Assembly: GCA_001899635.1 (NCBI GenBank)
Contig: MKVQ01000048.1
Location: 372,001 to 436,000, forward strand
Source of the DNA: Myxococcales bacterium 68-20
GTDB lineage: Bacteria > Myxococcota_A > Polyangia > Polyangiales > Polyangiaceae
Reading direction: 5' to 3'
DNA: 64,000 nucleotides
The position numbers and the translations under genes are program-made. The notes beneath the pieces are model-generated. The model was not told the DNA's origin, did not search any database, and saw nothing but the letters and a program-made list of their open reading frames with translations. Below, piece after piece: positions 14,733 through 62,740 of this stretch; position 1 is the first letter of the stretch, and the number at the start of each line of letters is the position of its first letter.

Positions 14733-14750
14733 AACGGAAATCCGAGCCCT

Positions 14751-29708: not shown

Positions 29709-29769
29709 CACTCTCTCCTCACTCGGACGTCGACGCGCGTCGACGGCATATCGTCGGGCAATCTTTGGG

Positions 29770-32776: not shown

Positions 32777-33047
32777 GAGATGCACGAGGCTAGCTCCGCG
32801 AGACCTGATCGCAAGGCTTGCGGTTGTCATCCGGATGCGCGACTGAAGTCCCGCCCCGCCAACACAGGGCTCTTTTGGGGCCCCGCGGCCTGCAACCCCA
32901 CGGAATGGGCCGGCCGAGCCCGATCGACGGGGCCCGCGCGTCGACCCGCCTCGAAGCGGGGACGCGGAGATTGGCTTCTACCTCCGCCGAGCGCGGCCGG
33001 GTATGGGGCGGCTCGCCACCGAGATGCTATCGTCGTTCCCGCTCGCC

Positions 33048-46100: not shown

Positions 46101-49100
46101 GGCACGCGCGAACGCCTCCTCGGCGGGTGAGCCGGACATGTCCACGCGCTCGAGCTGGAAGGAGGATCGGTCGTCGATGCGCTGGACCGGCCTGCCGCCG
46201 ACGTTCTCGAAACGCGTCCGCAGCGACTCGTGGCGCTTCACGATCTCGCCGAGCGCGCGCTCGAGGACGTCGAGATCGACGTTGCCACGCAGACGGAAAG
46301 CCTGCGGGATGTTGTAGACGGCTCGTCCCGAGTCGATTTGGTCGAGGAACCAGAGCCGCTGCTGCATGAGCGACGCCGGGAGCGCCTCGTTTCCGCCCAC
46401 GTCGACGTGGAGCGATCGATCGGTGCGGCGGAGCGCCGGCCCCTCGTTCCGGCCGCTCTCACGTGCGGCCTCGATCTCGCCGGCGATGCCCGCGATCGTC
46501 CGCTTCTCGAAGAGGCTGCGCAGCGAGATCTCGACGTTCAAACGCTTTCGGACGCGCGAGAGGACCTGGGTGAGGAGCAGCGAGTGCCCCCCGAGATCGA
46601 AGAAGTCGTCGTGGATGCCGACGCCGTCGACGCCGAGAATCTCCTCCCACACGGCGGCGATTGCACGCGTGAGGTCGGTCTCGGGCGCGACGAAGGCCGT
46701 CGCGAGGTTCGGGCGAGTGACCTTCACCGCCGCGACCGGCGCCACCTCGTCCGCCGCCTCGGGCTTCGCCGGGCGCGTCGACTCGATGAGCGCGAGGAGG
46801 TCCTGCGACGAGACGACGACCTGCGGCGCGAGCGGCCCGGCCAGGATCCGCTCGAGGGCCTGCATGCCCTCCTCCGGCAGGATCCCCTGCTCGAGGCCGA
46901 GCTCGAGGATCGGGTTGCCGACCTTCGACCGCTCAGGCGCGCGGGCCTCGCTCGCCGCGCGATCGGACTTCGCCTCGATCGATCCCTTCGTCGACGCGGC
47001 GGCGAGCTCCGTCATCACGGCGCGGTCTTCGACCCGGCGCATGACGAAGTCGTCGATCTCGGCGATCACGTTGCCCGCCTCGTCGGCGATCCGAACCGCG
47101 TAGGTCGCGAGGTCGCTCGTCGCCGACGTACAGCGCACGTGGCTCCGCACCTTCGGCGGCATCTTCCCGAACACACGAACTCGACCGTACGAGAGCGGGA
47201 CGAAGAACACCGTCTTCGGATCGAAGCCGGGCACGAGCGCCTGCGCGCCCGCGGTCGCGAAGTCGAGCAGCGCGGGATGCAGCGCGTAAGACTCGCAGTC
47301 CGATACGTGCTCTGCCGGCAGCTCGAGCGAGACGAGCGCCTCGCCCTCGCCGTACGCCACCGAGCGGCGGTTGTTCCAACGCGGGCCGAAGTCGAGATGG
47401 GCGTCGGCGGCCGAGTCGAACGTCTCGACGCGCGGGCACCTCCCAGCGATATCGGCGATCGCGATCGGGGCGGTCTTGCCGGCGCTCTCCCACCGAAGTC
47501 GTCCGATGGCGTGGACCGTGCCATCGGCGCCCGCGACCTTGCCCTCCCATCCGTCGCCCTGCCTTTCGAGCGTGACGGTGAGCTCTCGCGACTCGCCGTC
47601 CTTCACCACGAACGGAGCGAGGAAGGCAATCTCCGAGAGCACCGGCACCTTACCCGGCTCGGGCTTCTCCGCGAGGGCCGCCCGCAAGAGCTCGACGTAC
47701 CCGGTGCCCGGAATGAGCGCGGTGCCGCCCTTGATCCGGTGCTCGCCGACGACCCAGTGCGTATCGGTCGCGAACGTGCTCGCGTAGACGCGCTGCTCAG
47801 CGGTGTCGCGCACGCAGCGGTCGAGGAGTGGGTGGACCGCCGGACGCTCGGCGGCGCCCGCACGACCGAGGCCGAGCGACCGGGCGAGCTCGGCCGCCAT
47901 ACCGACGCGCTGCCATGCGTTCCAGTTCACGGCCACGCAGAGCGTGCCGTCGCGTGCAGTCCGCGCGTGGGCGAATGCGTCGAGGAACGCGTTCGCGCCG
48001 GCGTAGTCGATCTGCCCGGCGAGGCCGGTGATCGAGCTGACCGACGAGAAGAGGACGAAGAAGTCGAGCCGGGAGCCGGCGAGCGCCTCATCGAGGACGA
48101 GCGTGCCGAGGGCCTTCGGTGTGAGGACACGCTCGGCTTGCTCGCGCGTCTTCATCTGGAGAATTCCGTCGTCGAGGACGCCCGCCGTGTGGAACACGCC
48201 GTTGAGCGTCCCAAAGCGCTTGCGCGCCTCGGCGACGACCCGGCGCATGTCGGCCGGGCTCGATACGTCGCCCGCCGCGACGAGGACCGACGCTCCGAGC
48301 GCCTCGAGCTCGCGCACTGCCTCTGCGCGCGGGTCGGCCTTTCGACCGACCAGGACGAGCTTCGCCTTGTGAGCGGTCGCGAGGTGGCGCGCGAGCACGA
48401 GACCGAGGCCGCCGAGGCCGCCGGTGACGAGGTACACCCCGCCTTCACGCACGCGCGAGGTCGCGCGCGCGCTTGCTTTCGGTGGATCGGAGAGCTGCTG
48501 CGCCCGCGGGAGCGAAGTCGCCTCGAACGTCTGCACGAAGCGGTCGTGACCGCGATACGCGATGACATGCTCGAGCCACGCGTCGGTCCGCTTCGCTTCG
48601 GTCTCTGCGATGAGGCGGAAGGCGAGCTCGGCCTCGTGCCACGTCCCGACGGCGGGGACGGTGAGGTCGACGCTGGTGCAGGTGACCGACGGGATCTCCT
48701 GCATCATGACCTTGCACGGCCCGAGCACGGTCGCCCGCTCCGGATGGGCGACCGCCTCGCCGGCGACCTGCGCTGTCCCGCTCGACGCGACGACGAGCGC
48801 GATCGGCGTCGCTGTGCCGCTCTTTCCGATCGCTTGCGCGAGCGCGAGCAGCGAATGGAAGCCGAGCGACTGCGCCTGTTCGTAGCGCGCCTCGAGATTG
48901 TTCGCCTTGGGCAGCTCGCCCGCGGTCCACAGGTGGAGGATCCGGCGCGGGACGAAGCTTCGCTTCTCGAGCCCCGAGAGCAGCGCGTCGTAGTCCTCGG
49001 GGACGTCGGCGCGGATCGTCGCATCGCGCTCGGAGATCGAGAGCTTCGTGCCAGGAGTCACGCGGACGACTTTGCGTCCTGCCGCGCGGAGCTGTTCGAC

Positions 49101-51950
49101 GACGTTGTTGCCGAGCCGCGCAGAGTCGCCGCTCTCGCCGGCGAAGACGAGCCACCCCTCCTTGCCGTCCCCCGCCACGTCGGGCTCGCCGACGTGCTGC
49201 CGCTTCCACGACGGCAGGTAGAACCAGTCGGCAACGTCGTTCTTCTTGCGCAGGCTCCGCGAGGACGCCTGTGTCACCGTCGTCCCCGGCTCGATCCAGT
49301 ACCGTTGGTGCTCGAACGGGTAGGTGGGGAGCGAGATGCGGCACGCTCCACGCCCCTCGTAGAACGCGTTCCAGTCGATCGTGACGCCCGACATCCAGAG
49401 GCGCCCGACGACGTCGAGCATGAACCCGACGTCGGAGACCTTCTCGGTCGGATGGCGGAGGACGCTGTGGACGACGCGCGCCCGGCCTGCTGCCGGATGC
49501 GCCTTGACGAGGCTCGTCAGCGTCCGCCCCGGCGCGAGCTCGAGCATCACCATGTCGGGATCGGCGAGCGCGACGTCGAGGTTCTTCGAGAACTGGACGG
49601 TGCTCCGGAGATGCCGCACCCAGTACATCGGGTCGGTCGCCTCGGCCTCCGTGATCCACGTTCCGGAGACGTTGGAGAGGAATGGGAGCTTCGGCGGCGA
49701 GAGCGCGATCTTCCGCGTGAGCTGCGCAAAGCTCTCGAGGATCGGCTCGAGCATCCGCGAGTGAGCCGCCACGTGGATCCGGATCCGACGGAAGTCGACG
49801 TCACGCGAGGAGAGCGCCTTTTCGAGCGCCTCGATGGCAAGAGCAGGACCGGCAGCGACCGTGATCGTCGGTCCGTTCACGACGGCGACGTCGAGCTCCG
49901 ATCCGAGCAGCGGCTCGAGCTCTTCACGCGGGAGCGCGACGCTGATCATCGCGCCGGGCTCGACCTTCTCGAAGAGTTGCCCGCGGAGGAGCACCATGCG
50001 CAGACCGTCTTCGACGCTGAACACGCCGGCGAGGCATGCGGCGACGTATTCGCCCATGCTGTGCCCGAGCATCGCCGTCGGCGTGACGCCCCACGCCATG
50101 AATTGCTTGGCGAGCGCGTATTCCGTCATGAAGAGCGACGGCAGGGCCCGCGAGCCGTGCTGGAGCGCCTCGCTCGCAGCGTCCTCCTCCTCCGGTGACG
50201 GAAAGAGGAGCGGCTTCAGGTCCTCCTTCGTCATCGAGCGCAGGAGCCCGAGGCAGTGGTCGATCTCGGTCCGGAACGTCGGCTCGGTCTCGTAGAGCTC
50301 ACGCGCCATGTTGGCGTATTGCGCTCCCCCACCCGGGAACAGGAACGTGACTGCACGCCGATCCTTCGCCTGCTGGGTGAGCACGCGCGCCGGATCGCGC
50401 GCGAGCAGCGCGTTGGCCACGTCGGCCGCATCCTTGCCGACGACGATACGGCGATGTGCGAAGTCGCGCCGTCCGAGGCCGAGCGTGTAGGCCGCGTCGG
50501 CGAGCGAAACCTCCGGGTGGGTGAGGAGATGGGTCGCCAGCCGTTCGCCTGCGCGATCGACCGCGGCGGCGCTGCGCGCGCTCAGCGTGACGAGCTCCTG
50601 GCGGCGTGCGGTCCCCTTCGGGCGCTCCTGCTCCGGAGCCTCCTCGAGGACGACGAAGGCGTTGGTGCCGCCGACGCCGAGCGAGTTGACGCCGGCGCGG
50701 CGCGGATGGTTCGACGTCTTCCACGGCGCGAGCTTCGCGCTGACGAAGAAGGGCGTGGTCTCGATCTCGAGCTGCGGGTTCGGCTTCTCGAAATGGAGCG
50801 TCGGCGGCAGCTGCTTCGCCTTCAACGCATTGACGACCTTGATCAGGCTGGCGACTCCGGCCGCCGTGTCGGTGTGGCCGATGTTGGTCTTGACCGATCC
50901 GATCCCGCAGAACCCGACGTCGTCCGTGTGCTCGCGGTACGCCTGCGTGAGCGCGGCGACCTCGATCGGATCGCCGACCGGCGTCCCCGTGCCGTGGCAC
51001 TCGACGTAGGTGATCGTCCTCGGGTCGCAGCCGGACAGCGCGATCGCCTCGCCGATGCACGAGGCCTGTCCCTCCACGCTCGGCGCGAGATAGCCGACCT
51101 TGCTTGCGCCGTCGTTGTTGATCGCCGAGCCGCGGATGATGGCGTGGATGATGTCGCCGTCGGCGACCGCATCCTCGTAGCGCCGGAGCGCGACGACGCC
51201 GAGCCCGCTCCCGAAGACCGTCCCCTTCGACGCTGCGTCGAACGCGCGGCAATGCCCATCCGGCGAGAGGATCTCACCTTCCTCGTAGATGTAGCCGCGC
51301 CGATGCGGCATCTCGAACGTGACGCCTCCCGCGAGCGCGAGGTCGCACTCGCGCGAGAGGAGGCTCTGACACGCCATGTGGATCGCTACGAGCGACGTCG
51401 AGCACGCCGTCTGGACGTTGACGCTCGGGCCGGTGAGCTTCAGGCAATACGAGATACGAGTCGACAAGAAGTCCTTGTCGTTCCCCGTGTGACGCAAGAG
51501 GAAGAACCCGACCGAGTCGACGAGCGCCGGGTTCGTCAGGAGGTTGTAGGGCAGATACGCGTTGTGCCCCGAGCCGGCGAACACGCCGATCGATCCTTTG
51601 AACCGGTCCGGATCGACCGCGGCGTCCTCGAGCGCCTCCCACGCGCACTCGAGCATGTGCCGGTGCTGCGGATCCATGATCGAAGCGTCACGTGGCGAGA
51701 AGCCGAAGAAGCCCGCGTCGAACTCGTCCATCGCCTCGAGCGGCGCCCCCGACTTGACGTAGTGGGGATGCATCAGCTTGGCCGGATCCTCGCCGGCCGC
51801 CTCGAGCTCCCCATCGGTGTAGGCGGTCAAGCACTCGACACCGTCACGGATGTTGCGCCAGAAGCTCTCGACGTCGGCGGCGCGGGGAAAGCGCCCAGAC
51901 ATCCCCACAATCGCGATGGTGGTTGCGGGATCGAACGGCGTGTCGCTCAT
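43167..51950 (-). CDS. Hybrid PKS-NRPS: KS-AT-KR-DH-ACP-C-A-PCP, no thioesterase
   Basis: A 2927-residue assembly-line protein. Ketosynthase, about 10-440: Cys183 (TACSTS), His319, His359. Acyltransferase, about 535-860: Ser631 (GHSMGEY). Ketoreductase, about 1165-1380, after a structural subdomain: TGGLGGLG, LDD motif of B-type KRs at 1259-1261, Tyr1316. Dehydratase, about 1395-1640: His1404 (GEHRIKGG) and Asp1563 (HPALLDF). ACP Ser1790. Condensation domain: HHIVCDG (1985-1991). Adenylation domain: YTSGSTGKPKG, NMYGPTE, NGKVNR; pocket about DILQLGMIWK, a known glycine-type code. PCP Ser2853. The module should add malonyl, reduce and dehydrate to an enoyl chain, then join glycine. KR before DH is not the usual order. 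The product stays on the last PCP unless released in trans. It follows the formyltransferase NRPS by 53 bases. Confidence 0.94.
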   Translation of the reverse strand: MSDTPFDPATTIAIVGMSGRFPRAADVESFWRNIRDGVECLTAYTDGELEAAGEDPAKLMHPHYVKSGAPLEAMDEFDAGFFGFSPRDASIMDPQHRHMLECAWEALEDAAVDPDRFKGSIGVFAGSGHNAYLPYNLLTNPALVDSVGFFLLRHTGNDKDFLSTRISYCLKLTGPSVNVQTACSTSLVAIHMACQSLLSRECDLALAGGVTFEMPHRRGYIYEEGEILSPDGHCRAFDAASKGTVFGSGLGVVALRRYEDAVADGDIIHAIIRGSAINNDGASKVGYLAPSVEGQASCIGEAIALSGCDPRTITYVECHGTGTPVGDPIEVAALTQAYREHTDDVGFCGIGSVKTNIGHTDTAAGVASLIKVVNALKAKQLPPTLHFEKPNPQLEIETTPFFVSAKLAPWKTSNHPRRAGVNSLGVGGTNAFVVLEEAPEQERPKGTARRQELVTLSARSAAAVDRAGERLATHLLTHPEVSLADAAYTLGLGRRDFAHRRIVVGKDAADVANALLARDPARVLTQQAKDRRAVTFLFPGGGAQYANMARELYETEPTFRTEIDHCLGLLRSMTKEDLKPLLFPSPEEEDAASEALQHGSRALPSLFMTEYALAKQFMAWGVTPTAMLGHSMGEYVAACLAGVFSVEDGLRMVLLRGQLFEKVEPGAMISVALPREELEPLLGSELDVAVVNGPTITVAAGPALAIEALEKALSSRDVDFRRIRIHVAAHSRMLEPILESFAQLTRKIALSPPKLPFLSNVSGTWITEAEATDPMYWVRHLRSTVQFSKNLDVALADPDMVMLELAPGRTLTSLVKAHPAAGRARVVHSVLRHPTEKVSDVGFMLDVVGRLWMSGVTIDWNAFYEGRGACRISLPTYPFEHQRYWIEPGTTVTQASSRSLRKKNDVADWFYLPSWKRQHVGEPDVAGDGKEGWLVFAGESGDSARLGNNVVEQLRAAGRKVVRVTPGTKLSISERDATIRADVPEDYDALLSGLEKRSFVPRRILHLWTAGELPKANNLEARYEQAQSLGFHSLLALAQAIGKSGTATPIALVVASSGTAQVAGEAVAHPERATVLGPCKVMMQEIPSVTCTSVDLTVPAVGTWHEAELAFRLIAETEAKRTDAWLEHVIAYRGHDRFVQTFEATSLPRAQQLSDPPKASARATSRVREGGVYLVTGGLGGLGLVLARHLATAHKAKLVLVGRKADPRAEAVRELEALGASVLVAAGDVSSPADMRRVVAEARKRFGTLNGVFHTAGVLDDGILQMKTREQAERVLTPKALGTLVLDEALAGSRLDFFVLFSSVSSITGLAGQIDYAGANAFLDAFAHARTARDGTLCVAVNWNAWQRVGMAAELARSLGLGRAGAAERPAVHPLLDRCVRDTAEQRVYASTFATDTHWVVGEHRIKGGTALIPGTGYVELLRAALAEKPEPGKVPVLSEIAFLAPFVVKDGESRELTVTLERQGDGWEGKVAGADGTVHAIGRLRWESAGKTAPIAIADIAGRCPRVETFDSAADAHLDFGPRWNNRRSVAYGEGEALVSLELPAEHVSDCESYALHPALLDFATAGAQALVPGFDPKTVFFVPLSYGRVRVFGKMPPKVRSHVRCTSATSDLATYAVRIADEAGNVIAEIDDFVMRRVEDRAVMTELAAASTKGSIEAKSDRAASEARAPERSKVGNPILELGLEQGILPEEGMQALERILAGPLAPQVVVSSQDLLALIESTRPAKPEAADEVAPVAAVKVTRPNLATAFVAPETDLTRAIAAVWEEILGVDGVGIHDDFFDLGGHSLLLTQVLSRVRKRLNVEISLRSLFEKRTIAGIAGEIEAARESGRNEGPALRRTDRSLHVDVGGNEALPASLMQQRLWFLDQIDSGRAVYNIPQAFRLRGNVDLDVLERALGEIVKRHESLRTRFENVGGRPVQRIDDRSSFQLERVDMSGSPAEEAFARADAASREGFDLATGPLVRASVYQLAPDDVVLWFNVHHIVCDGWSLALYFQELSALYAAFVAGKPSPLRAPSIQYVDYAAWQHEVVASGVHDSELEFWKTTLGGELSPLALPFDRARPPVSSSKGKLARFNVDKEQTEGFAALAREERASLFMTMLAAFQVFLSRLSGQGDVLVGSPIANRDREEVRDAIGFYTNTVVFRGDVTGPSTFREYVRATRERVIATLARQEVPLERVVEAVNPDRRTGENPLFQVMFAMQRAPESAFVLDGVEIAAVDVHSGTSKFDLLLEMQEVSSGMQCFFEYATDVFDDRTATRMVGQFRHLLTVLLHDPDRSIADVSLLDAAERKRLLEEWNETTVEYPKHERLHDRFVAVSAVRPDAIAAEYEDTSITYRELDERSNRLAHYLKARGAGPDVMVGIHVNRSIEMLVALLGTLKSGAAYLPLDPSFPEDRIAYMIEDSATPLILTQAELESQLPKSDRTALVRLDADWPEIEREPSSLPACESTSQNLAYVIYTSGSTGKPKGVELEHRGVVSFLDSMRREPGFGPDDKLVAVTTLSFDISVLEVFLPLTSGGTIVIASRDATVDGHELLELLRKSRATTMQATPATWRMMLDAGWSVEGASSTPALQRILCGGEAWPAGLARELCARVPEVWNMYGPTETTIWSTCARITDPDDITIGRPIANTQCYVLDGRRAPVPTGVVGELYLGGDGLARGYHGRLELTQDRFVDNPFRPGRMYRTGDLVRLRDDGRIQYLERADNQVKVRGYRIELGEIEAVLEKHPAVKQPVVIVWDDGADKRLVAYIVHAEGQSLTGTELRTYLRGALPDYMIPHVFVEMDALPLTANGKVNRSALPDPSGEERGAGRAFEPPVTANEQLVADIWKSVLKIERVGRQDNFFDLGGHSLLSAHVTYQVEKATGYRMSARAMIFQNLEQIAAELPAQTPETTSAIRPKAVEPQEPVAKKSLFSRFRDRLRRSS

Positions 51951-52003: not shown

Positions 52004-55000
52004 TCAGCGGCGCTGGGGTCGGCGGTCACGCGCCTCGTTCCGCCGCGCCATCGCCGCCCTTCGCGCATCCGCGCGGTCCTTGCTCTTCTCCATGGTCTTC
52101 GACGTTCCGTCGCCGCCGAGGAACTCGGCGAGCGAACGGATCGTCGGGAACCGGAACAGATCGGTGAGCGCCAGCGGGCGCGACAGCACGTCCTTGAGCC
52201 GGCGCTGCAGCTGCACCGTGAGGAGCGAGTGTCCTCCGAGATCGAAGAAGTTGTCGTCGAGACCGACGCGGTCGACCGAGAGCAGCTCGGTCCACACGGC
52301 GGCGATCTGTGTCTCGATCCCTTCGGCCGGTGGGGCGTAGGCGGCCGCGGTCCGAGCCGCGGCCTTGTCCGGCGCCGGGAGCGCCTTCCGATCGACCTTG
52401 CCGTTCGGCGTCAGCGGGAACTTCGGCAGGACGACGAAGGCGGACGGCACCATGTAGTCGGGCAGCTCGGCCCGAACGCTCGCCTTGAGCACATCGACAT
52501 CGATCGACTGGCCGGTCTCGGCGATGAGGTACGCGACGAGGCGCTTGTCACCCGGCGCGTCCTCGCGTGCCGCGACGACGACGTCGCGAACGCCGGCCTC
52601 CTTGCGGAGCTGCGCCTCGATCTCACCGAGCTCGATCCGGTAGCCGCGGATCTTCACCTGGAAGTCCATGCGGCCGAGGAAGTCGAGTGTCCCGTCCGGG
52701 CGGCGGCGCACCAGGTCGCCGGTTCGATAGAGACGGCCGCCCTGGCGGAACGGGTCGTCGACGAACCGCTCGGCCGTGAGCTCCGCGCGCTCGAAATAGC
52801 CTCGCGTGACTCCCTCACCGCCGATGTAGAGCTCTCCCGCCATCCCGAGCGGCACGAGCTCCCGCCGGCGGTCGAGGACGTAGAGCTGCGTGTTCGCGAT
52901 CGGCTCGCCGAGCGAGACCGCGGAGCCGTCCCCCGCGACACGCGCCGTCGACGACCAGATCGTCGTCTCGGTCGGGCCGTACATGTTGAGGATGTCGGCG
53001 GACGTCGCTGCCCGAAGCTCCGCCGCGAGCGCGGCGGGGAGAGCTTCACCGCCGACCATGACCTTCGAGAGGGCGCGGAGCGCGGCCCGCGACTCTTCAT
53101 CCGCGAGGATCATGCTCATCTGAGACGGCGTGCACTGCAGATGCGTCACCCCGTGGCGCTTCACCTGGGCGGCAAGCGTGTAGTCGGTGCCGGCGTCCAC
53201 CGGGGTGGTGGCGAGCGTCTTCAGCTCGTTCAGGTACTCGAGGTGCTCGAGCACCTTCGCCGACGGCACGCCGTAGTCGAGGAGGCAGCCGATGTCGTCG
53301 ACGCCGATCCCCTTCAGGCGATCGATGATCTTCAGGCACGACGCCGGCGTCCCGAAGAGACCGCTCGTCTCGTAGTAGCGGTTGAACGCGTGCTCGAGGA
53401 CGGCGTCGAGCTCCTCGGGGCTGAGCTCCTGCTCGTCGAAGATCTGCGCCGGCGTCTTCCCCGACTTGTCGGCCTTCTCCTTGAACGTGGGGAACGTCCA
53501 CGCCGCCGCCTTGATCAGATCGACGGAGCTCTTGAGGTATGCCTTCATCGGCTCACGCACGAGCCGGCGCACCTCGTCGGCATCCGGACCGACGAAGGTG
53601 TGGAGCATGACCGTCACCTGTCCCGGCCCCTCGTGCCCGGCGGCCTTGCGCGCCTCGCGGTAGACGCGGATCTTCTCGCCCACCTCATCGATCGTCTGGC
53701 CGAGCAAGTGGGTCAGGAGGTTCGCGCCGATCTCGCCCGCGGCGCGGAAGGTCTCGGGGTTGCCCGCGGCGGTGAGCCAGAACGGGAGCTCCTTCTGGAT
53801 CGGGCGGGGGAGCGTTCGAACCTCGATCTCCTTGCCGATCGGCGACGTCACCTTCAGCGTCTCGCCGCGCCACAGCTTCCGGACGATCTCGAGATCGTCG
53901 AGCATCGCCTGCTTCCGGTCCTTGAAGCGCTCCGGCTTGTAGATCACGAAGTCGTTCGGCTGCCATCCCGACGCGAACGAGATGCCGACGCGGCCACCGG
54001 ACAGGTTGTCGACGAGCGCCCACTCCTCCGCGACGCGGATCGGATGGTGGAGCGGCATGACGACGGACGCGGCGCGGAGGTGAATGTTCTTCGTGATCGT
54101 CGCCAGCGCGGCGGCGGCGACGGACGGGTTCGGGTAGAGCCCGCCGAAGGCATGGAAGTGACGCTCGGGCGTCCACACGGCGGAGAACCCGTTCTCGTCG
54201 GCGAAGCGCGCGCCTTCGAGCAGGAGCTTGTACTTGTCGCTCGCCTTGTTCTCGCCTTCGTCGCTCGCGAAGTACATGAGCGACATCGTGATCGGCAGCG
54301 CCTGGTTCGGAAGGTGAGCGCGCGCGAGCGCGGCATCGTCCGCCTTGTCCGAGTGGACGACGACCTTGAAACCGCGCGTGAGCGTCCAGAACAGCTCGAG
54401 GACCGAGATGTCGAACGAGAGGCTCGTCACGGCGAGCCAGGCCCCGGGCTCCTTGTGCTCGAGACGCTCGTCCATCCCGGCGAAGAAGTTGACGACGTTC
54501 CGGTGCTCGACCATCACGCCCTTCGGCTTGCCGGTGGAGCCCGACGTATAGATCACGTACGCGAGGTTGCTCGACGCGACCTTCGTCTCTGGCTTCGTCT
54601 TCGGAGCATCGGAGACTTCGCTCACGAAGATCGTCTCGCCGGTGTGAGCCGGGAAGCGGCCCGCAAGCTCGCGCTGCGTGACGAGCACTCTTGCGCCCGA
54701 GTCTTCGAGCATGAGCGCTAGGCGATCGCGCGGGTACGTCGGGTCGAGCGGGACGTAGGCGCCGCCCGCCTTCATCACGCCGAGCGTGGCGACGAGCATC
54801 TCGGCGCTCCGCTCGACCGACACCGCGACGAGAGAGTCCGGGCCGACGCCGAGCGCGACGAGACGATGCGCGAGCTGGTTCGCGCGCGCGTCGAGCTCGG
54901 CGTACGAGAGGGCCTGCTCGAGGTAGCAGACGGCTGGCGCATTCGGTGTGCGGGCTGCCTGCTCTTCGAAGAGCTGGTGAACGCAGACGTCGCGCCGGAA

Positions 55001-56668
55001 GTCGACAGCGGTGGCGTTGAAGTCGCCGACGATCCGCTTCTGCTCGTCCTCGGAGAGGAGCGGCTGCGCGCCAATCGGCGTCGTGCCGCTGCCAGCGGCG
55101 CCGGCGAGGAAGATCCCGAACTGTCGCTGCATCGACGCGATCGTCGCGCTCCCGAGGACGCGCGAGTCGGCGCACCACACCATCTCGCCGTTCTGTCCGA
55201 GCGCGATGGCGAGCGTGGCGTTCGCCGGCGGCGTGTAGTCGGCGACCGAAGCCGCGACCTCGATCGTGACCTGACCGAGCGCGCTGGTGATCGCCTGGGC
55301 ATTCGCGGCGAGCTGCGGATGGCGGGCGATCGTGTCACGCGGATACGTCCCACGTGTCCGCACGCGCTCGAGCTCGGCGCCCACGGACGCCACGAGAGCG
55401 TCGAAGCCTGCCTCCATCGCGACGTTCGCGCGGAACGGGACGTGGTGGGCGAACCAGCGCGGAGCGTCCACGATGCGCTCGCGCAGCGCCGGATCGCCGA
55501 AGGCGACATCGAACTGCTCGGCGTCGCACACGCGAGCGAGGTAGGCGAGCACGGCAGCAACGATGGCGTCGCTCCCGAGCGACCTCGCGGCGTCGGGGAT
55601 CACGAACGACGAGCGCGTGCTGCCCGAGTCGAGGAGCGCCGGATCGACGAGCGGGAGCTCGAGCGGGACGAGCGCTGCGAGCCGCTTGGTCCAGAACGAC
55701 TCGTACCGGCAGAGATCCTCGTGAAGCGCAGTGAGCCGCGTCGACTCGTCGTCCGAGATCCGCGGCAAGGTCGAGCCGACACGAAGGCCGTGCCGGGCCG
55801 CCCACTCGACGATCGCGACAGGGCTGCCGGAGAGGCACGTGAGCTCACGAACGGCGAGCGCGCCTTCGCCGCAGGCGACGACGAGCTCGTCGTCGAGCGT
55901 CAAGATCGTCCCGGGAGCACCGCTGCCGTCGACGCGGGCGGCGCTCTTCACCGCAACGAGCTCGTCGCCCGCGAGGATCTTCGCGAGCGTGAGCGGATTC
56001 TCGACGGGGCCGAAGTCGAGCGCACGCACGACCGCCTCGAGCGCGGTGGCGTCGCGATCCCAGCGCAGCGTACCGGCAGACTCAGGACGCTTGTGGCGTG
56101 CGAAGTAGTGCTTTTCCGCCGGCGGTTGCGGACGCGGCTCGGCGCGGCCCGACGTGAGCGCATCGGCGAGCGGGCCAAAGCTCTCGATCGCTGCTTCGTA
56201 GCAGCGCGTGTTGAGCGTGTAGCTCGTCTCCTCCGCCCCCAGCTCGAACGTCGTCTGGTGATAAATGGCGCCTGCGTCGACGTCCTCCGTCATCGCGTGC
56301 CACGTGATCCCGTGGCTCTCCTCACGATTGAAGAGGGCCCATGCCGTCGCGTACAGGCCGGCGTACCGCGGGAGCGGGCCGTCGTGGAAGTTGATCGCGC
56401 CCTTGCGCGCCTTCGCGATGACGTCGCCCGGGATCATCGTGAGGTTGGTGATGCTGAAGAAGTAGTCGAACGGCTCGGTCAGCCGTGCCGCGAGATCCTT
56501 CCCCGGCGCGACGACGGGAAGGCCCCGCTCCTCTGCCCAGCTCACGAGCTGCGGCGTCGCCGTGATGACACCACGAACGACGTGGCCTCGATCGAGCCAA
56601 GCCTCCGCGCAGTGGATCAGGAGCGACTCGCTACCAGCGAGATAACACGAGGACACTTGTTCGCGCAT
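52004..56668 (-). CDS. Starter NRPS: formyltransferase, partial C, A with inserted luciferase-like monooxygenase, PCP
   Basis: A 1554-residue initiation protein. Residues 1-290: formyltransferase domain of the Fmt/GART type with Asn93, His95 (AINFHDGPLP) and Asp131 (EDVDAGAIY). Residues about 310-535: only the C-terminal half of a condensation domain; the HHxxxDG motif is missing. Adenylation domain from about 560: YTSGSTGKPKG (707-717), FDISVLE (752-758), interrupted at about 790-1150 by an FMN-dependent luciferase-like monooxygenase (WTPERHFHAFGG, SFASGWQPNDF), resumed with NMYGPTE (1228-1234), YRTGDL and NGKVDR. PCP Ser1481. The pocket is about DILQMGMIWK, glycine-like. Expected chemistry: activate glycine, formylate its amine, and possibly oxidise the alpha carbon, then pass to the KS of the next protein. 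The tail is Arg/Lys-rich. Confidence 0.92.
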   Translation of the reverse strand: MREQVSSCYLAGSESLLIHCAEAWLDRGHVVRGVITATPQLVSWAEERGLPVVAPGKDLAARLTEPFDYFFSITNLTMIPGDVIAKARKGAINFHDGPLPRYAGLYATAWALFNREESHGITWHAMTEDVDAGAIYHQTTFELGAEETSYTLNTRCYEAAIESFGPLADALTSGRAEPRPQPPAEKHYFARHKRPESAGTLRWDRDATALEAVVRALDFGPVENPLTLAKILAGDELVAVKSAARVDGSGAPGTILTLDDELVVACGEGALAVRELTCLSGSPVAIVEWAARHGLRVGSTLPRISDDESTRLTALHEDLCRYESFWTKRLAALVPLELPLVDPALLDSGSTRSSFVIPDAARSLGSDAIVAAVLAYLARVCDAEQFDVAFGDPALRERIVDAPRWFAHHVPFRANVAMEAGFDALVASVGAELERVRTRGTYPRDTIARHPQLAANAQAITSALGQVTIEVAASVADYTPPANATLAIALGQNGEMVWCADSRVLGSATIASMQRQFGIFLAGAAGSGTTPIGAQPLLSEDEQKRIVGDFNATAVDFRRDVCVHQLFEEQAARTPNAPAVCYLEQALSYAELDARANQLAHRLVALGVGPDSLVAVSVERSAEMLVATLGVMKAGGAYVPLDPTYPRDRLALMLEDSGARVLVTQRELAGRFPAHTGETIFVSEVSDAPKTKPETKVASSNLAYVIYTSGSTGKPKGVMVEHRNVVNFFAGMDERLEHKEPGAWLAVTSLSFDISVLELFWTLTRGFKVVVHSDKADDAALARAHLPNQALPITMSLMYFASDEGENKASDKYKLLLEGARFADENGFSAVWTPERHFHAFGGLYPNPSVAAAALATITKNIHLRAASVVMPLHHPIRVAEEWALVDNLSGGRVGISFASGWQPNDFVIYKPERFKDRKQAMLDDLEIVRKLWRGETLKVTSPIGKEIEVRTLPRPIQKELPFWLTAAGNPETFRAAGEIGANLLTHLLGQTIDEVGEKIRVYREARKAAGHEGPGQVTVMLHTFVGPDADEVRRLVREPMKAYLKSSVDLIKAAAWTFPTFKEKADKSGKTPAQIFDEQELSPEELDAVLEHAFNRYYETSGLFGTPASCLKIIDRLKGIGVDDIGCLLDYGVPSAKVLEHLEYLNELKTLATTPVDAGTDYTLAAQVKRHGVTHLQCTPSQMSMILADEESRAALRALSKVMVGGEALPAALAAELRAATSADILNMYGPTETTIWSSTARVAGDGSAVSLGEPIANTQLYVLDRRRELVPLGMAGELYIGGEGVTRGYFERAELTAERFVDDPFRQGGRLYRTGDLVRRRPDGTLDFLGRMDFQVKIRGYRIELGEIEAQLRKEAGVRDVVVAAREDAPGDKRLVAYLIAETGQSIDVDVLKASVRAELPDYMVPSAFVVLPKFPLTPNGKVDRKALPAPDKAAARTAAAYAPPAEGIETQIAAVWTELLSVDRVGLDDNFFDLGGHSLLTVQLQRRLKDVLSRPLALTDLFRFPTIRSLAEFLGGDGTSKTMEKSKDRADARRAAMARRNEARDRRPQRR

Positions 56669-56793: not shown

Positions 56794-57486
56794 TCAGCGC
56801 TCCGCCACGGGCGGGATCTGGACGCTCGTCACGAGGATCTGCTCGGCCGAGAGCTCGCTGAACTTGCCGGAGACCACCGTCCCCGCGAGGAAGCCGCCCA
56901 CGTCGCGAAGGAACACGCCTCGAAAGGCCCCTCGAAGCGAGGGACTGCGCTCGAGCTTCGTGATCTCGATTCGGGCATCGGCGAAGTCCATGAACTCGTT
57001 GGTGCGCGGATATTGCGCCTTGTAGAGCGACTCCTTCGCCGAAAAGACGATCATTGCGAGCTGCTGCCGTTGGTCGAACGGCGCGGCCTCGACGAACGCG
57101 CGCTCCTCGTCGACCAGGATCCTGGGCCACAGGTCCTCGGAGAGGCGGAGCCGGTCCTCGACGTCGATGCCGAACGTGCCAGTCTCGTCGAGCCGGCCCA
57201 CGGCGGCGAAGGCCTTCTTGGTGCAGTGAGAGATGCTCCCGGTGAATCCCTCCGGCCAGATCGGCGCTCGCATCTCATCCTGGAGGATCGCGACGTCGTT
57301 CACTCCGAGCTGCGCGAGCGCAGCGCGCGCCAGCTTCCGTCCCGTTGCGAACTCGTGCCGACGCTTGTCGACCGCACGTGCGACGAGCAAGGCTTCGTTC
57401 GGGTGAAGCGAGGCTGACGCCGTGAAGTCGATCGGGCTCGTTCGGACGACCACCGGCCCCTCGAATAGCCCATCGAGCTCGTGCAT
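56794..57486 (-). CDS. 4'-phosphopantetheinyl transferase (Sfp/EntD superfamily)
   Basis: A 230-residue enzyme that attaches phosphopantetheine from CoA to carrier-domain serines. Signatures: WPEGFTGSISHC, the magnesium site GIDVE (Asp108, Glu110), and FSAKESLYKAQYP with Glu152. The FSAKES form and the ISHC stretch match the EntD group. ATG 57486 is preceded closely by GGAGGAG; an upstream GTG at 57501 has no site. It sits 125 bases before the formyltransferase NRPS and is the only such enzyme seen in the window, so it probably activates both assembly lines and the free ACP at 14751. Confidence 0.92.
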   Translation of the reverse strand: MHELDGLFEGPVVVRTSPIDFTASASLHPNEALLVARAVDKRRHEFATGRKLARAALAQLGVNDVAILQDEMRAPIWPEGFTGSISHCTKKAFAAVGRLDETGTFGIDVEDRLRLSEDLWPRILVDEERAFVEAAPFDQRQQLAMIVFSAKESLYKAQYPRTNEFMDFADARIEITKLERSPSLRGAFRGVFLRDVGGFLAGTVVSGKFSELSAEQILVTSVQIPPVAER

Positions 57487-57571
57487 CGCTCCTCCGGTCA
57501 CACCAAGAATCGCCGACGCGAGTGGCAGGTCACCGAGCTCGCCTGCCGGACATGCTCCCGCACGAGGTCGC

Positions 57572-58537
57572 TCAGGACGGCTCGCGCTGCAACCAGTCGA
57601 CGACGCTCGCCAGGCCGTCGTCCAGCTTCACGCGCGGTGACCACCCGAGCTCCTCGCGGGCCCGGGTGATGTCTGCGAACGTCGCGTCGACGTCACCGAG
57701 CGGAACGGGAGCGCGTTCGATCGTCACCGGGCGATTCGCCGCGCGGCTCATCGCATCCACGAGCTCAGCGAGCGTCACCGGCGCGCCCGACCCGAGGTTG
57801 TAGGGCCGCGCGCCCTTCGGCGCCTGGTCGATCGCGGCGACGAGACCACGGACGATGTCCTCGATGTGCGTGAAATCGCGACGCATCGAGCCGTCGCCGA
57901 ACATCGTGATCGGACGCCCGGCCAGGATCTTCCGGAGAAAGCTCGTGATCGCCATCTCCGGGCGCTGCCACGGTCCGTAGACGGTGAAGAAGCGGAGCAT
58001 CGGCGCGCGCATCTCCGGCGTCTTCCGGAGCATCGAGCTGACGACGAGCTCCGCGCTCCGTTTGCTCGCCGCGTACGGAGATTCGGGCACGATCGCCGGT
58101 GCATCCTCGGTCGCCGGGAGAGGCGTCGCGTTGCCGTACACGGACGAGCTCGACGCGAAGAGGAACAGCGAGCAGCCCGCGTTCTGCGCCGCCTGGAGCT
58201 GAACGGCCGTGCCCTCGACGTTGACGTCCTGGTAGCGCGCCGGATCGACGAACGAGGGACGCACGCCCGCGAGTCCGGCGAGATGAAGGACGCCGGTCAC
58301 CCCGGCCGAGAGCCGTGCCGCGAGCTCACGGTTCGTGACGCACCCCTCCTCGACGCTGAAGCGGTCACCGTGCTCCTTCTGCAGGACCTCGGCGTGGCGT
58401 CGCTTCAGTCGCTCCGGGTACGGCTCGTTCGAGAAGTCGTCGAGCACGCGGACGGTGTCCCCGCGCTGGAGCAGCGCCCGCGAGAGGTGATGACCGATGA
58501 AGCCGACGCCTCCCGTCAGGAACCACGTGCTCGACAT
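57572..58537 (-). CDS. NAD-dependent nucleotide-sugar epimerase (UDP-glucuronate/UDP-glucose 4-epimerase-like)
   Basis: A 321-residue extended SDR. Motifs: TGGVGFIGHH at the start, LHLAGLAGVRPSFVDP, SSSSVYGN, and catalytic Tyr-x-x-x-Lys in SPYAASKRSAE. RFFTVYGPWQRPEMA is typical of UDP-glucuronate epimerases. It starts nine bases before the preceding Ugd gene ends on the same strand, so the two form a pair: Ugd would make UDP-glucuronate and this enzyme would convert it to UDP-galacturonate. The acid sugar would serve the polysaccharide. Confidence 0.88.
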   Translation of the reverse strand: MSSTWFLTGGVGFIGHHLSRALLQRGDTVRVLDDFSNEPYPERLKRRHAEVLQKEHGDRFSVEEGCVTNRELAARLSAGVTGVLHLAGLAGVRPSFVDPARYQDVNVEGTAVQLQAAQNAGCSLFLFASSSSVYGNATPLPATEDAPAIVPESPYAASKRSAELVVSSMLRKTPEMRAPMLRFFTVYGPWQRPEMAITSFLRKILAGRPITMFGDGSMRRDFTHIEDIVRGLVAAIDQAPKGARPYNLGSGAPVTLAELVDAMSRAANRPVTIERAPVPLGDVDATFADITRAREELGWSPRVKLDDGLASVVDWLQREPS

Positions 58538-58546
58538 CGGCCGGCG

Positions 58547-59896
58547 CTACCTCTGGGACGGGCGATCGAGCGCCCGGCCCGACGCGTGCGCGACGCCGAT
58601 GCCCTGGTAGCGGAGCCCCGCCTTGAGGACGTCGGCGGGCTTCCAGATGTTGCGTGCATCGACGAGCAGCGGATTGGCCGAGCCGCTCGACACCAAGCGC
58701 TTCTTGATCTCGCCGAAGTTCGGCGCGCGATAGCTACGCCACTCGGTGAGGAGGATGACCGCGTGCGCGCCGTCGAGCGCCTCGTAGTCGCGATCGACGA
58801 CCCTCACCTTGGAGCCGAACAGCTTCCTGAAGTTCGGCCCGGCCTCGGGATCGTGGCCGGAGACGTTCGCGCCCTTGTCGAGCAGGACACGGGCGAGCTT
58901 CACGGCCGGAGATTCGCGGATGTCGTCCGTCTCCGGCTTGAATGCGAGCCCCCAGAGCGCGATCGTCTTCCCCTCGACACCGTCGAGCGCCTTGTCGACG
59001 AGTTGCGCGAGGAAGTGAGCCTGCTCCTCGTTCGCGAGGTGCGCAGCCTCGGCAACGCGCATCGGCACGGTGTGCTCGCGACCGAGCGCGACGAGCGCCT
59101 GGACGTCCTTCGGAAAGCACGATCCGCCGTAGCCGGGGCCCGCGTAGAGAAACTTCTTGCCGATGCGCGAGTCGGTGCCGACGCCCATGCGGACCGAGTG
59201 GATGTCGGCGCCGGTGGCGTGGCAGAGCCGCGAGAGCTCATTCATGAACGAGATCCGGATCGCGAGCATGGTGTTCGACGCGTATTTGATGAGCTCGCTC
59301 GAGCGCGGATCGGTGACGACGAGGCGCTCGCCGGAGAGCTGGAGCGGCGCGTAGAGATCGCGCATCGCCTGCCGGGCCTCTTCGCTCCGCGCGCCGACGA
59401 CGACACGGTCGGGCTTGAAGAAGTCGTTTACTGCGTCGCCTTCCTTCAGGAACTCGGGGTTCGACACGACCTCGAGCGTGACGTTCGCGGTCGTGAGCCG
59501 CGCCTGCACCGCGTCGCACGTGCCGACGGGGACGGTGCTCTTCACGACGACGAGCGCGTCCCGCGTGGCCGTCTTCGCGATCGTGTCGGCCGCCGACATG
59601 ACGTACGAGAGATCCGCGGCGCCGTCGGAGCCGGGCGGAGTCCCGACCGCGATGAAATAGGCATCGGCCGAGTCGAACGGCGCCGGGATCGACGTGCCGA
59701 AATGCAGGCGGCCGTTGCGCTGATTTCGATGGACCAGGTCGGCGAGCCCCGGCTCGTAGATCGGAACATGCCCCTCGTTCAGCTGCGCGACCTTTGCCGG
59801 ATCGATGTCGTACACGAGCACGTCGTGACCGAGATCGGACATTCCGGTTCCACTCACGAGGCCAACGTAACCCGCGCCGAAGACGACGATTCGCAT
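58547..59896 (-). CDS. ugd: UDP-glucose 6-dehydrogenase
   Basis: A 449-residue enzyme that oxidises UDP-glucose to UDP-glucuronate with two NAD+. The N-terminal fold starts MRIVVFGAGYVGLVSG, and the catalytic Cys260 lies in GPGYGGSCFPKD exactly at the family position. EVVSNPEFLKEGDAVNDF and WGLAFKPETDDIRESP are further signatures. ATG 59896 is the natural start although the frame is open to 60022. It is flanked by a glycosyltransferase and an epimerase on the same strand. It supplies a uronic acid donor, so the polysaccharide is probably acidic. Confidence 0.95.
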   Translation of the reverse strand: MRIVVFGAGYVGLVSGTGMSDLGHDVLVYDIDPAKVAQLNEGHVPIYEPGLADLVHRNQRNGRLHFGTSIPAPFDSADAYFIAVGTPPGSDGAADLSYVMSAADTIAKTATRDALVVVKSTVPVGTCDAVQARLTTANVTLEVVSNPEFLKEGDAVNDFFKPDRVVVGARSEEARQAMRDLYAPLQLSGERLVVTDPRSSELIKYASNTMLAIRISFMNELSRLCHATGADIHSVRMGVGTDSRIGKKFLYAGPGYGGSCFPKDVQALVALGREHTVPMRVAEAAHLANEEQAHFLAQLVDKALDGVEGKTIALWGLAFKPETDDIRESPAVKLARVLLDKGANVSGHDPEAGPNFRKLFGSKVRVVDRDYEALDGAHAVILLTEWRSYRAPNFGEIKKRLVSSGSANPLLVDARNIWKPADVLKAGLRYQGIGVAHASGRALDRPSQR

Positions 59897-60022
59897 TGAG
59901 GGGCAAAAACTATCCCCTAGGGCCACCAGCCGGCAAGCGTGCCGTCCAGCCGTGTCGGCGGGCTTCGCTCCACCGGGCTCCACGGGGGAATCAGGAAGGT
60001 ACGCCGGGCCGCACGGCGCCAC

Positions 60023-61213
60023 TCACCCGTTCGTGCGACCGGCGGGGCGCGACGTGCCGGACAGGAGATCGACGATCTGCTGCGTCGACTCTTTCCACGT
60101 CATGAGCCCGGGCAGCGCGACGCGCTTGGCGTCCTGGTCCGGAACGCCTCTCTCGCCCCGCGCCGCGAGCGACCGCTCGATCGCAGCCGCGAGCGCGCCG
60201 ACGTTCTCGGGAGGCACGAGCGCGCAATCCGTCCCCTCGGCGATCTCGGCGACGCCTCCGACCTGCGTCGCGACGAACGGCGTCCCGCAGGCAAGCGACT
60301 CGCGGAGCACGTTCGGGACCCCCTCGGAGCGGCTGGCAAGGATGGTCAGATCGGCGGCGCGGTACCAATCGGGCAGCCCTCGCTGATCGACCTTGCCGGC
60401 GAAGTGAACGACGCGGTCCTTCAAGCCGAGCCGTTCGGCCTGCGCCTCGAGCGCCGCCCTGCTCTTGCCGTCGCCGACGAGGTAAAGCGAGACGTCGCGC
60501 GTCTTCGCGACCACCGCCACCGCGTCGATGAGCACGTCGATGCCCTTCACCGGCAGAAGGCTCCCCACGGCGACGAGCATCCTGCCGCGCGGAGTGATAC
60601 CGAGCCTCTTCCGCGCCTCGACGGCCGAGCCCGGCGCGAAGAGGTCCTTGTCGACGCCCTGGTAGACGACATGGACCTTGTGCGAGGGGACGCCGAGCGC
60701 CCTTACGGCCCGCGCAAGGTCGCGACCGACCGTGATGACGGCGCTGTTCGCGTGGAGCGCGTCGATGACCGCCCGCTGCCGGCGCCCCGGCTCACGCGCG
60801 AGGACGAGCACGTCGGAGCCGCCGACGATCACCCCGGAGGGGATCCCCGCCGCGCGCGCGAAACGTGCGGCCACCGCACCGTCCGGATGCGCCCAGTAGC
60901 TGAGGACGGCCTCGGGGCGGAACTGGTCGAGCACGCGCGTCAGCGCAGCGCGGCTCGAGAGCGCCATGAACCGGTCGTACCGGCTCTGGAGCACCCGCGG
61001 CGGATAGGCGTACGTCGGGTATTCCGTCGGGATGCCGTCGAGGCCGTAGGCGGGCCGCGGATCGCGCCCACGCGGCTCCAGCCACCCCTTCGGCGACACG
61101 ACGCGCGCCTCGTGACCGAGATCCACGAGCGCCCGACACACGTGCTGGCAGTAGATGCCGAGCGTCACGTTCCACGAGCGCGGGAAGATGCTGCTGAAGA
61201 AGAGGACTCGCAT
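60023..61213 (-). CDS. Family 4 glycosyltransferase
   Basis: A 396-residue GT-B enzyme. The N-terminus MRVLFFSSIFPRSWNVTLGIY, the hinge VHVVYQGVDKDLFAP, the donor-binding domain (MLVAVGSLLPVKGIDVLIDA, LYLVGDGKSR) and the Glu-x7-Glu motif (ASRSEGVPNVLRESLACG) are all in place. It lies between another GT4 gene (33-base gap) and the Ugd gene (126-base gap) on the same strand. It probably adds one sugar of the lipid-linked repeat on the cytosolic face of the membrane; the linkage is unknown. Confidence 0.9.
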   Translation of the reverse strand: MRVLFFSSIFPRSWNVTLGIYCQHVCRALVDLGHEARVVSPKGWLEPRGRDPRPAYGLDGIPTEYPTYAYPPRVLQSRYDRFMALSSRAALTRVLDQFRPEAVLSYWAHPDGAVAARFARAAGIPSGVIVGGSDVLVLAREPGRRQRAVIDALHANSAVITVGRDLARAVRALGVPSHKVHVVYQGVDKDLFAPGSAVEARKRLGITPRGRMLVAVGSLLPVKGIDVLIDAVAVVAKTRDVSLYLVGDGKSRAALEAQAERLGLKDRVVHFAGKVDQRGLPDWYRAADLTILASRSEGVPNVLRESLACGTPFVATQVGGVAEIAEGTDCALVPPENVGALAAAIERSLAARGERGVPDQDAKRVALPGLMTWKESTQQIVDLLSGTSRPAGRTNG

Positions 61214-61246: not shown

Positions 61247-62407
61247 TCAGGTGCGCTGCCGGCACGAGAGGTAGAGGTCGTAGTAGCTGCTCGCCATCTT
61301 CTCGGCGGAGTACGTTCGCAGCGCGTGCTCGCGCCCTCGCTGCGCCATCTCCTGCAGCGCACGCAGGTCTGGCTCGAACGCACGTAGCGCCGCAGAGGAG
61401 AGCGCCGCCTCGTCGCCGTTCGGGACGAGGAGCCCCGTACGCTCGTGCTCGATCGCGGCGGGGATCCCGCCGACGGCCGTCGAGATGACAGGCAGGCCGG
61501 CGGCCCACGCCTCGATGAGGCCGATCGGGAGGCCCTCGGTGCTCGAGGACAAGATCCAGGCGTCCGCTGCGGCCAGCAGCGCTGGGACGTCACTGCGCCC
61601 GCCGGTCATGTGGACGTACTGCCGCGTCGGCAGGGCGTCGACGAGCGCTCGGACGTCGCCCCGCATGGGGCCGTCGCCGACGATCACGAGCCGGCGGTCG
61701 TCGCGGAGGAGCGGGCCGACGGCTCGCAGCAGGAGCGCGTGGTTCTTCTCCTTCACGAGCCTGCCGACCTTCACGAGGACACGTGCGCTCGCCGGGATGT
61801 CCAGCTCGCGCCTGATCCTCGAGCGGGCGCCGTCTTCGGCCGGGAAGCGAGAGAGGTCCGTCCCGTTGACGATGACCCGTAGCTTGTCGGGCGTGCACTC
61901 GGACGCCCGACGCGCGACCTCGGCGGTGGCCTCCGAAACGGCGACGAAGACGTCCGCCGCCGTGGCCGCTGCTCGCCGTAGCAGGTGGGCGCGCGACGAC
62001 ACCGCGACGGTGCCGTGCTTGCTGTGGACGACGGCGGCGCGCGCGAGCTTCCCCCCGGGCGCCCCGTAAATGAGAGGCAGCTCGTTGTGCGTGTGAACGA
62101 CGTCTGCACCGTACCTCCGGAACCACCGTGCCAAGCGGAGGGGCAACGAGAGATCGGTGCCGCGCCACTTCGGGACGGCCTCGAGGGTATCGACGACCCC
62201 CTGGAACTCGGCGGCCATCGCCCCGCGCACGTTGCTGAGCGTCACCACGGAGACGCGGTGACCATCCGCACGCTGCGCCCGTGCGAGATCGAGCACCACC
62301 CGCTCTGCACCCCCGACCTCGACGGACCAGAGGACGTGGCAGATCGAGAGGGGCAAGCGCCCGCTAGCCGTGCGCGAGGACACCTTGTCGACCGAGGTAG
62401 CGTTCAA
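61247..62407 (-). CDS. Family 4 glycosyltransferase
   Basis: A 386-residue GT-B enzyme. Signatures: ICHVLWSVEVGGAERVVLDL (glycine-rich acceptor loop), NGTDLSRFP, VLVKVGRLVKEKNHALLLRA, LVIVGDGPM and the Glu-x7-Glu region SSTEGLPIGLIEAWAAG. I place the start at TTG 62407 because GAGAGGAG ends eight bases before it; the frame opens at TTG 62431, and a GTG at 62383 is a further option. It heads the seven-gene minus-strand run that ends with the PKS-NRPS gene. Confidence 0.88.
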   Translation of the reverse strand: MNATSVDKVSSRTASGRLPLSICHVLWSVEVGGAERVVLDLARAQRADGHRVSVVTLSNVRGAMAAEFQGVVDTLEAVPKWRGTDLSLPLRLARWFRRYGADVVHTHNELPLIYGAPGGKLARAAVVHSKHGTVAVSSRAHLLRRAAATAADVFVAVSEATAEVARRASECTPDKLRVIVNGTDLSRFPAEDGARSRIRRELDIPASARVLVKVGRLVKEKNHALLLRAVGPLLRDDRRLVIVGDGPMRGDVRALVDALPTRQYVHMTGGRSDVPALLAAADAWILSSSTEGLPIGLIEAWAAGLPVISTAVGGIPAAIEHERTGLLVPNGDEAALSSAALRAFEPDLRALQEMAQRGREHALRTYSAEKMASSYYDLYLSCRQRT

Positions 62408-62740
62408 GCTGCGGACTCCTCTCGTTTCCAAGCCAACAGGTGGTCATGTAGTCGACGGAGGGGATAGCCAATACGCCCATTCGACGCACTCGCAAGCCTC
62501 CCGGCTCTCGTCTAGAGTCCGTCCTGGGCCTCGGCCCGACATGATCGACAACCTCGTCCGTGTCGTCGTTCCTTCGAGCAACGGTTCGTACTGGATCGCG
62601 AGGACGGACGATAGCGTGCTCGGACAGCCGCGTCGCAGCATGAAGGCGACCATGGTCGACGAAGGCTCGACCTACAACACACACGATCGGGAACCTGCTC
62701 ACATCCGCTCGCGGAGCATCATCGTCGAAGGGGGAGCAAC
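62408..62740. other. Divergent intergenic region, no clear gene
   Basis: This gap separates the minus-strand glycosyltransferase and the plus-strand deacetylase and must hold both promoters. It looks less GC-rich than the coding parts. A plus-strand frame is open from 62370 to 62744 (with an ATG at 62541), but it overlaps the deacetylase start by four bases and resembles nothing I recognise; a small regulator cannot be excluded. No clear palindrome or consensus promoter was found. Confidence 0.5.

Follow-up and report, generated by a model that had tools for sequence, protein, structure and literature searches.

A predicted N-formylating starter module with a monooxygenase inserted in its adenylation domain, and its conserved family, in a putative polysaccharide locus of Myxococcales bacterium 68-20

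Introduction

The synthesis of linear gramicidin starts on LgrA, the initiation module of which (F-A-PCP) loads Val. F domains formylate the amine of a PCP-bound amino acid (PMC8949500). In other assembly lines, adenylation (A) domains for glycine are interrupted by a monooxygenase (MOX). In MtaG and MelG, which act in the myxothiazol and melithiazol lines, the MOX lies between motifs A4 and A5 and hydroxylates the alpha carbon of glycine; in modules of the myxothiazol type, the hydroxylated glycine collapses and is not kept, whereas solanimycin B, made by SolF, retains the alpha-hydroxyl (PMC10204066). All four MOX-bearing glycine A domains in one survey share the pocket code DILQLGMIWK (PMC12283262).

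Formylating (F-A-PCP) starters and MOX-interrupted glycine A domains are already known. For the union of a formyltransferase (FT) and a MOX in one module, the intervening half condensation (C) domain, the extent of the family and its polysaccharide setting, no description was found in the literature searched, and no paper describing the FT-MOX combination, alone or with exopolysaccharide loci, was found in a search that left out most subscription journals and is weak evidence of absence. Here, we describe a gene encoding both parts in a 64,000-nucleotide stretch of the genome of Myxococcales bacterium 68-20 (hereafter, the window). An initial annotation, made from the letters alone, had recognized a starter module with an FT and with a MOX inside its A domain; this observation was right, and its coordinates and residues were confirmed.

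Results and discussion

Architecture of the starter protein

The starter gene (Table 1) begins with ATG and is free of internal stops. Its coding signal is strong, the GC contents of the three codon positions being 0.69, 0.47 and 0.90, with the high third position of a real gene. Pfam models recognize, in order, Formyl_trans_N, Formyl_trans_C, AMP-binding split in two with Bac_luciferase in between, AMP-binding_C and PP-binding.

Table 1. Features of the window around the starter gene (coordinates are those of the window; residues are those of the starter protein)
Feature	Position	Strand	Evidence
Starter gene, FT - C-lobe remnant - A(N) - MOX - A(C) - PCP, 1554 aa	52004..56668	-	Pfam/NCBIfam models
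Formyltransferase, residues 1-295, with FMT/ArnA-type C-terminal subdomain 199-293	55784..56668	-	Pfam, alignment, predicted fold
Condensation-domain C-terminal lobe remnant, residues 316-550, without HHxxxDG	55019..55723	-	hhalign and motif scan
Adenylation domain part 1, residues 556-785, ending past FDISVLE and RGFKVVVHS	54314..55003	-	Pfam, alignment
Luciferase-like monooxygenase insert, residues 795-1150 (TIGR04020)	53219..54286	-	NCBIfam/Pfam/PDB sequence match
Adenylation domain part 2, residues 1160-1440, NMYGPTE and C-terminal subdomain	52349..53191	-	Pfam, alignment
PCP, residues 1454-1517, LGGHSL with pantetheine Ser	52118..52309	-	Pfam PP-binding and alignment
Partner PKS-NRPS, KS-AT-KR-DH-ACP-C-A(DILQLGMIWK)-PCP, 2927 aa, active sites intact, without TE	43167..51950	-	Pfam and motif check
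4'-Phosphopantetheinyl transferase (PPTase)	56794..57501	-	profile match
NAD-dependent sugar epimerase/dehydratase, same apparent operon, 70-base gap to PPTase gene	57572..58537	-	profile match
UDP-glucose dehydrogenase family, TIGR03026 430 bits (cut-off 190)	58547..60022	-	profile match
Family 4 glycosyltransferase	60023..61213	-	profile match
Family 4 glycosyltransferase	61247..62431	-	profile match
Polysaccharide deacetylase	62741..63760	+	profile match
Bacterial sugar transferase (priming glycosyltransferase)	33821..34540	+	profile match
Wza-like polysaccharide export protein	33003..33647	+	profile match
Family 2 glycosyltransferase	28683..29711	-	profile match
Family 4 glycosyltransferase	38001..39212	+	profile match
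Wzx-like flippase	2508..3968	-	profile match
Wzy-like polymerase / O-antigen ligase family	4045..5466	-	profile match

In the FT part, Formyl_trans_N matches residues 77-159 (E = 3e-15) and Formyl_trans_C matches residues 199-293. The catalytic residues Asn93, His95 and Asp131 named in the initial annotation are present, and all three are invariant among the aligned family members (85/85). The C-terminal subdomain of the ArnA/FMT type, on which that annotation was silent, is complete. In a predicted structure of FT (mean pLDDT 92.5), 288 residues superpose on the N-terminal domain of ArnA at 2.5 A (Z 27.1), and the sequence scores approximately 70 bits against ArnA and 65 against methionyl-tRNA formyltransferase versus 15 against the F domain of LgrA. 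A descent of FT from LgrA-type F domains, which was also considered, is thus unsupported. The analogy to linear gramicidin that had been drawn earlier holds for function but neither for descent nor for anatomy. Both proteins carry an N-terminal formyltransferase before A-PCP in a first module, and an N-formyl aminoacyl group is expected from both. However, the F domain of LgrA is short and fused straight to an A domain without a MOX, whereas the starter protein has an ArnA/FMT-like FT with its C-terminal subdomain, a half C domain and an interrupted, glycine-like A domain.

The half C domain (residues 316-550) is labelled by no Pfam model and had been missed previously. When the family profile was compared by hhalign with C domains from the same loci, it matched columns 190-454 of 454 (probability 99.5, E = 3e-23), leaving the N-lobe of the C domain unmatched; the FT part of the profile gave no match to C domains, and HHxxxD is absent from the whole starter protein. 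The half C domain is seen by profile-profile comparison only: a single-sequence search of PDB sequences with it returned nothing above chance, and fold searches with a model of FT plus half C returned formyltransferases only, the FT domain alone filling the list, so that the half C domain was not probed. On the profile evidence, FT occupies the place of the N-lobe of a C domain, and the half C domain would be a non-catalytic scaffold left over once a formyltransferase had replaced that lobe.

The A domain is split between FDISVLE and NMYGPTE, as had been reported: AMP-binding matches residues 567-781 and a second stretch after the insert, which lies between FDISVLE...RGFKVVV and THLQCTPS...NMYGPTE, i.e. 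between A4 and A5. In an AlphaFold model of the interrupted domain (mean pLDDT 82, pTM 0.55), the A fold is predicted to be whole across the insert, with 388 residues superposing on TycA at 2.0 A rmsd (Z 52.8) and model residues 3-783 spanning the MOX. The pocket, which had been called glycine-like, reads DILQMGMIWK and differs from the surveyed code of MOX-bearing glycine A domains (PMC12283262) at one position, by a conservative change. The family consensus is DILQ(M/L/F)GMIWK, and positions 235, 236, 239, 278, 301 and 331 are identical in every family member readable there. The pocket code predicts that the substrate is most likely glycine.

The insert matches TIGR04020 (MupA/Atu3671 luciferase-like MOX) along the complete model (positions 1-341 of 341), with 500 bits in the protein and 505 bits in the genome search against a curated cut-off of 244 bits. 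This match gives almost the same extent as the 53219-54301 assigned initially. Bac_luciferase matches residues 806-1124 (E = 5e-48). The nearest solved relative is the PuwE monooxygenase (6KET; 383 bits, nearly full length), which belongs to a line making 2-hydroxy-3-amino acyl groups and lies between PKS and NRPS modules (PMC4219810), in contrast to the position of the present MOX inside an A domain. The window genes that were examined include no recognized flavin reductase, a point against the glycine oxidation proposed below. Judged by these parts, the starter protein is probably an initiation module on which glycine is loaded, formyl-capped and oxidized.

A widespread family with sporadic occurrence

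The module is not an odd single case: it belongs to a large conserved family. A scan of one genome per species, the query of which was an FT plus half-C alignment without any MOX sequence, found at least 570 confirmed relatives, and the best 80 of these at least 570 were kept. They come from Polyangia, Planctomycetota, Chloroflexota, Acidobacteriota, Gemmatimonadota, Cyanobacteria, Proteobacteria and others. A MOX is present in the same reading frame as FT and half C in 73 of the best 80, and this association, obtained with a query free of MOX sequence, counts in favour of the chemistry proposed below. Contig ends truncate two of the remaining seven. In a quick and provisional maximum-likelihood tree, the outgroups of which include A4-A5 modules without FT, a branch with SH-aLRT 95 separates the 84 FT-linked MOX domains, joined only by one long-branch MOX of an FT-less locus, from the rest; provisionally, the FT-linked MOX domains appear to form essentially one clade.

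Proteins of Aminobacter, Ruegeria, Paracoccus and others that are labelled 'MupA/Atu3671 family FMN-dependent luciferase-like monooxygenase' are relatives named by the MOX alone. They share the domain order of the starter protein across 94-98% of the length, at 42-48% identity, and they too lie in polysaccharide regions. Among plasmids, tblastn detected 17 records in which a single region covers 80% or more of the query, with identities of <60%.

The locus is sporadic, since only 1 of 28 relatives of the window's genome, a member of the same order, carries it and a full FT plus half-C match is absent from 11 same-genus genomes (0/11). Such an occurrence fits an accessory trait.

Several individual loci showed other features. 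Two Sphingomonas loci (L079 and L097) encode FT-A-PCP relatives without a MOX that adjoin a KS in dense glycosyltransferase regions, and they are natural controls for the contribution of the MOX. On a Deinococcus plasmid (L008, 11770-17108), separate reading frames encode the FT and A[MOX] parts; the partner PKS has a terminal C domain with HHLAADA, not HHxxxDG, and next to it come a UDP-glucose dehydrogenase and an epimerase, which the window also has. A record titled Comamonas sp. KCTC 72670 (L055) carries a MOX that hardly differs from the ones in Myxococcus sp. CA023 (L050) and RHSTA-1-4 (L052), and this record may be mislabelled or contaminated.

Partner synthase and predicted chemistry

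The catalytic residues of KS, AT, KR, DH and ACP are all in place in the partner PKS-NRPS, and the pocket of its A domain (Table 1) is the surveyed glycine code itself. A KS was found in 57 of the 65 loci versus 0 of 28 control windows. Elsewhere, KS-AT-KR-DH-ACP is joined to a TE (Aminobacter, Ruegeria and Myxococcus), to a C domain (Deinococcus) or to C-A-PCP-TE (Aliiroseovarius), and in the closest relative among the matches listed (L019/L160), C-A-PCP is on a gene of its own. The partners of the MupA/Atu3671-labelled proteins end in TE where examined, whereas that in the window ends in C-A-PCP with no TE to release a product, which weighs against the route proposed below.

Like MtaG and MelG, the starter module has a glycine-type A domain with a MOX between A4 and A5, and the pocket codes are near-identical. 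However, those modules stand at the end of their lines, act on peptidyl-glycine and release an amide. The starter protein is not a terminal amide-releasing module: it has an N-terminal FT in the place of the N-lobe, it lacks the C catalytic motif, and its partner PKS opens with a KS. SolF is likewise a glycine module with an internal flavin monooxygenase, and its product keeps alpha-hydroxyglycine; its MOX, however, lies between A8 and A9 of an internal elongation module without FT (PMC10204066).

We infer the substrate, the order of steps, the alpha-hydroxylation and its retention from the domains, catalytic residues, pocket, domain order and conservation described above. The A domain would adenylate glycine and load it on the PCP, and FT would formylate the glycyl amine with 10-formyl-tetrahydrofolate as donor. 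Using reduced flavin and O2, the MOX would then hydroxylate the N-acylated glycyl thioester at its alpha carbon, yielding N-formyl-alpha-hydroxyglycyl-S-PCP. The pairing is chemically sensible because MOX domains of the MtaG type use N-acylated glycine as substrate and no acyl group is smaller than the formyl group that FT provides; without the formyl cap, alpha-hydroxyglycine would be expected to break down to glyoxylate and ammonia. The partner KS would take the N-formyl-alpha-hydroxyglycyl group, KS-AT-KR-DH-ACP would add one (probably malonate-derived) unit, reduce it and dehydrate it, and in the window's genome C-A-PCP would add a second glycine. We consider this route from Gly-S-PCP through N-formyl-Gly to N-formyl-alpha-hydroxyglycyl-S-PCP, followed by polyketide extension, to be rather likely. 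The N-formyl, alpha-oxidized glycine starter proposed in the initial annotation agrees with all of the sequence evidence and is, to this extent, partly supported.

The fate of the hydroxylated intermediate may be different. The carbinolamide could collapse into formamide and glyoxylyl-S-PCP, so that the KS would receive a two-carbon glyoxylyl group and the formyl group would be a disposable cap. Collapse occurs in myxothiazol and melithiazol, where the MOX is at the same A4-A5 position (PMC10204066; PMC11342130), and the nearest outgroups in the MOX tree include modules with an A4-A5 MOX. However, a formyl donor and reduced flavin would be spent on glyoxylate, a compound available without them; in myxothiazol, collapse is part of terminal release, whereas the present module is the first; and alpha-hydroxyglycine is kept in solanimycin B (PMC10204066). 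We therefore regard collapse as unlikely. The MOX might also act otherwise, by N-hydroxylation or Baeyer-Villiger cleavage, or its substrate might be the ketide that the KS has already extended, given that alpha-hydroxylation or Baeyer-Villiger chain shortening has been proposed for TIGR04020 enzymes in various polyketide lines (PMC8739492). Against this, every A-inserted MOX in the literature examined works on the alpha carbon of glycine (PMC10204066, PMC12283262, PMC11342130), and in the provisional tree the FT-linked MOX domains group essentially as one clade, the outgroups of which include A4-A5 glycine-type modules. We hold another action to be quite improbable.

Polysaccharide setting and possible purpose of the product

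The polysaccharide setting of the starter gene, which is absent from the initial annotation, was found here. Judged by the genes in Table 1, the window is a polysaccharide locus. Two glycosyltransferase genes and those for the UDP-glucose dehydrogenase, epimerase, PPTase, starter protein and partner form a run on one strand from 62431 to 43167 with gaps of 0-125 bases, which from spacing only is an apparent single operon. No terminators were found in the gaps between the operon genes; terminator-like matches in the region are not above those in shuffles and carry little weight.

Other genes of interest are present in these regions. A second assembly line in the window (14351-26924, +) consists of an AMP-binding protein followed by A-PCP-KS-AT-PCP-aminotransferase class III and then C-A-PCP, and looks like a beta-amino-acid line within the same polysaccharide region. 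Beta-helix proteins encoded in or beside the polysaccharide regions (window 5511-7235, +; 36134-37966, -; 39405-41111, -; and L009:1815-3431, -) are possibly polysaccharide lyases or epimerases. In both Ruegeria (L005) and Aliiroseovarius (L012), a gene for the VPLPA-CTERM exosortase XrtD lies near the locus, and a link between exosortase systems and the formylating starter line is possible.

The setting was compared with that of 28 control stretches, 20 kb long and drawn from the genomes that carry the loci, using iterated profiles of polysaccharide genes, the classes of which were seeded from the window and the studied loci and are thus biased towards similar genes. At least one polysaccharide gene was found in 35 of the 37 alphaproteobacterial loci, which are interrelated and not independent, and in 15 of the 28 other loci versus 3 of the 28 controls, the lengths of which differ somewhat from those of the loci (Fisher p = 0.0013 for the non-alphaproteobacterial set). 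With the same reservations, genes for assembly, export or priming were found in 34/37, 11/28 and 1/28, respectively (p = 0.0023, non-alphaproteobacterial set). In 15 loci, the gene directly upstream of the starter gene encodes a family 2 glycosyltransferase; in the annotated cases, it lies between the PKS and starter genes.

These counts bear on the purpose of the product rather than on the starter chemistry. The line may make a small molecule, perhaps a glycoside, that is secreted freely, in which case the polysaccharide setting would be coincidental or a mere supply of sugar. Approximately half of the non-alphaproteobacterial loci have no polysaccharide genes within reach, including those of Myxococcus, Anaerolineae, Acidobacteria and L019 (the closest Polyangia relative listed), and an ordinary TE ends many of the partners. 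On the other side stand the excess of polysaccharide genes over the controls, the glycosyltransferase gene that adjoins the starter gene on its upstream side in the 15 loci and the apparent operon with sugar genes in the window. We regard a secreted product as a serious possibility, although it falls somewhat short of an even chance. The other possibility is that the finished acyl group would be joined to a sugar of the surrounding polysaccharide, a weaker inference drawn from the neighbourhood only; the reactive carbinolamide itself might be the linkage point to a sugar hydroxyl. No acyltransferase for putting the acyl group on a sugar was identified. That the family represents a conserved, cross-phylum two-protein NRPS-PKS line, in which an acyl group started with N-formyl-alpha-hydroxyglycine is attached to an exported polysaccharide as a surface-glycan decoration, is a tentative proposal that we hold to be possible rather than likely.

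Implications

The starter protein presents a different anatomy for formylating starters, in which a formyltransferase appears to stand in place of half a C domain, and it offers a single-module system in which to ask if alpha-hydroxyglycine, once acylated, is stable while bound to a carrier protein. There are culturable hosts among the family. Assembly-line enzymes are usually studied as makers of secreted small molecules; if the proposal is true, the FT starters, which number in the hundreds, carry an internal glycine oxidase in most cases and are often part of polysaccharide operons, would represent an overlooked route to unusual surface chemistry.
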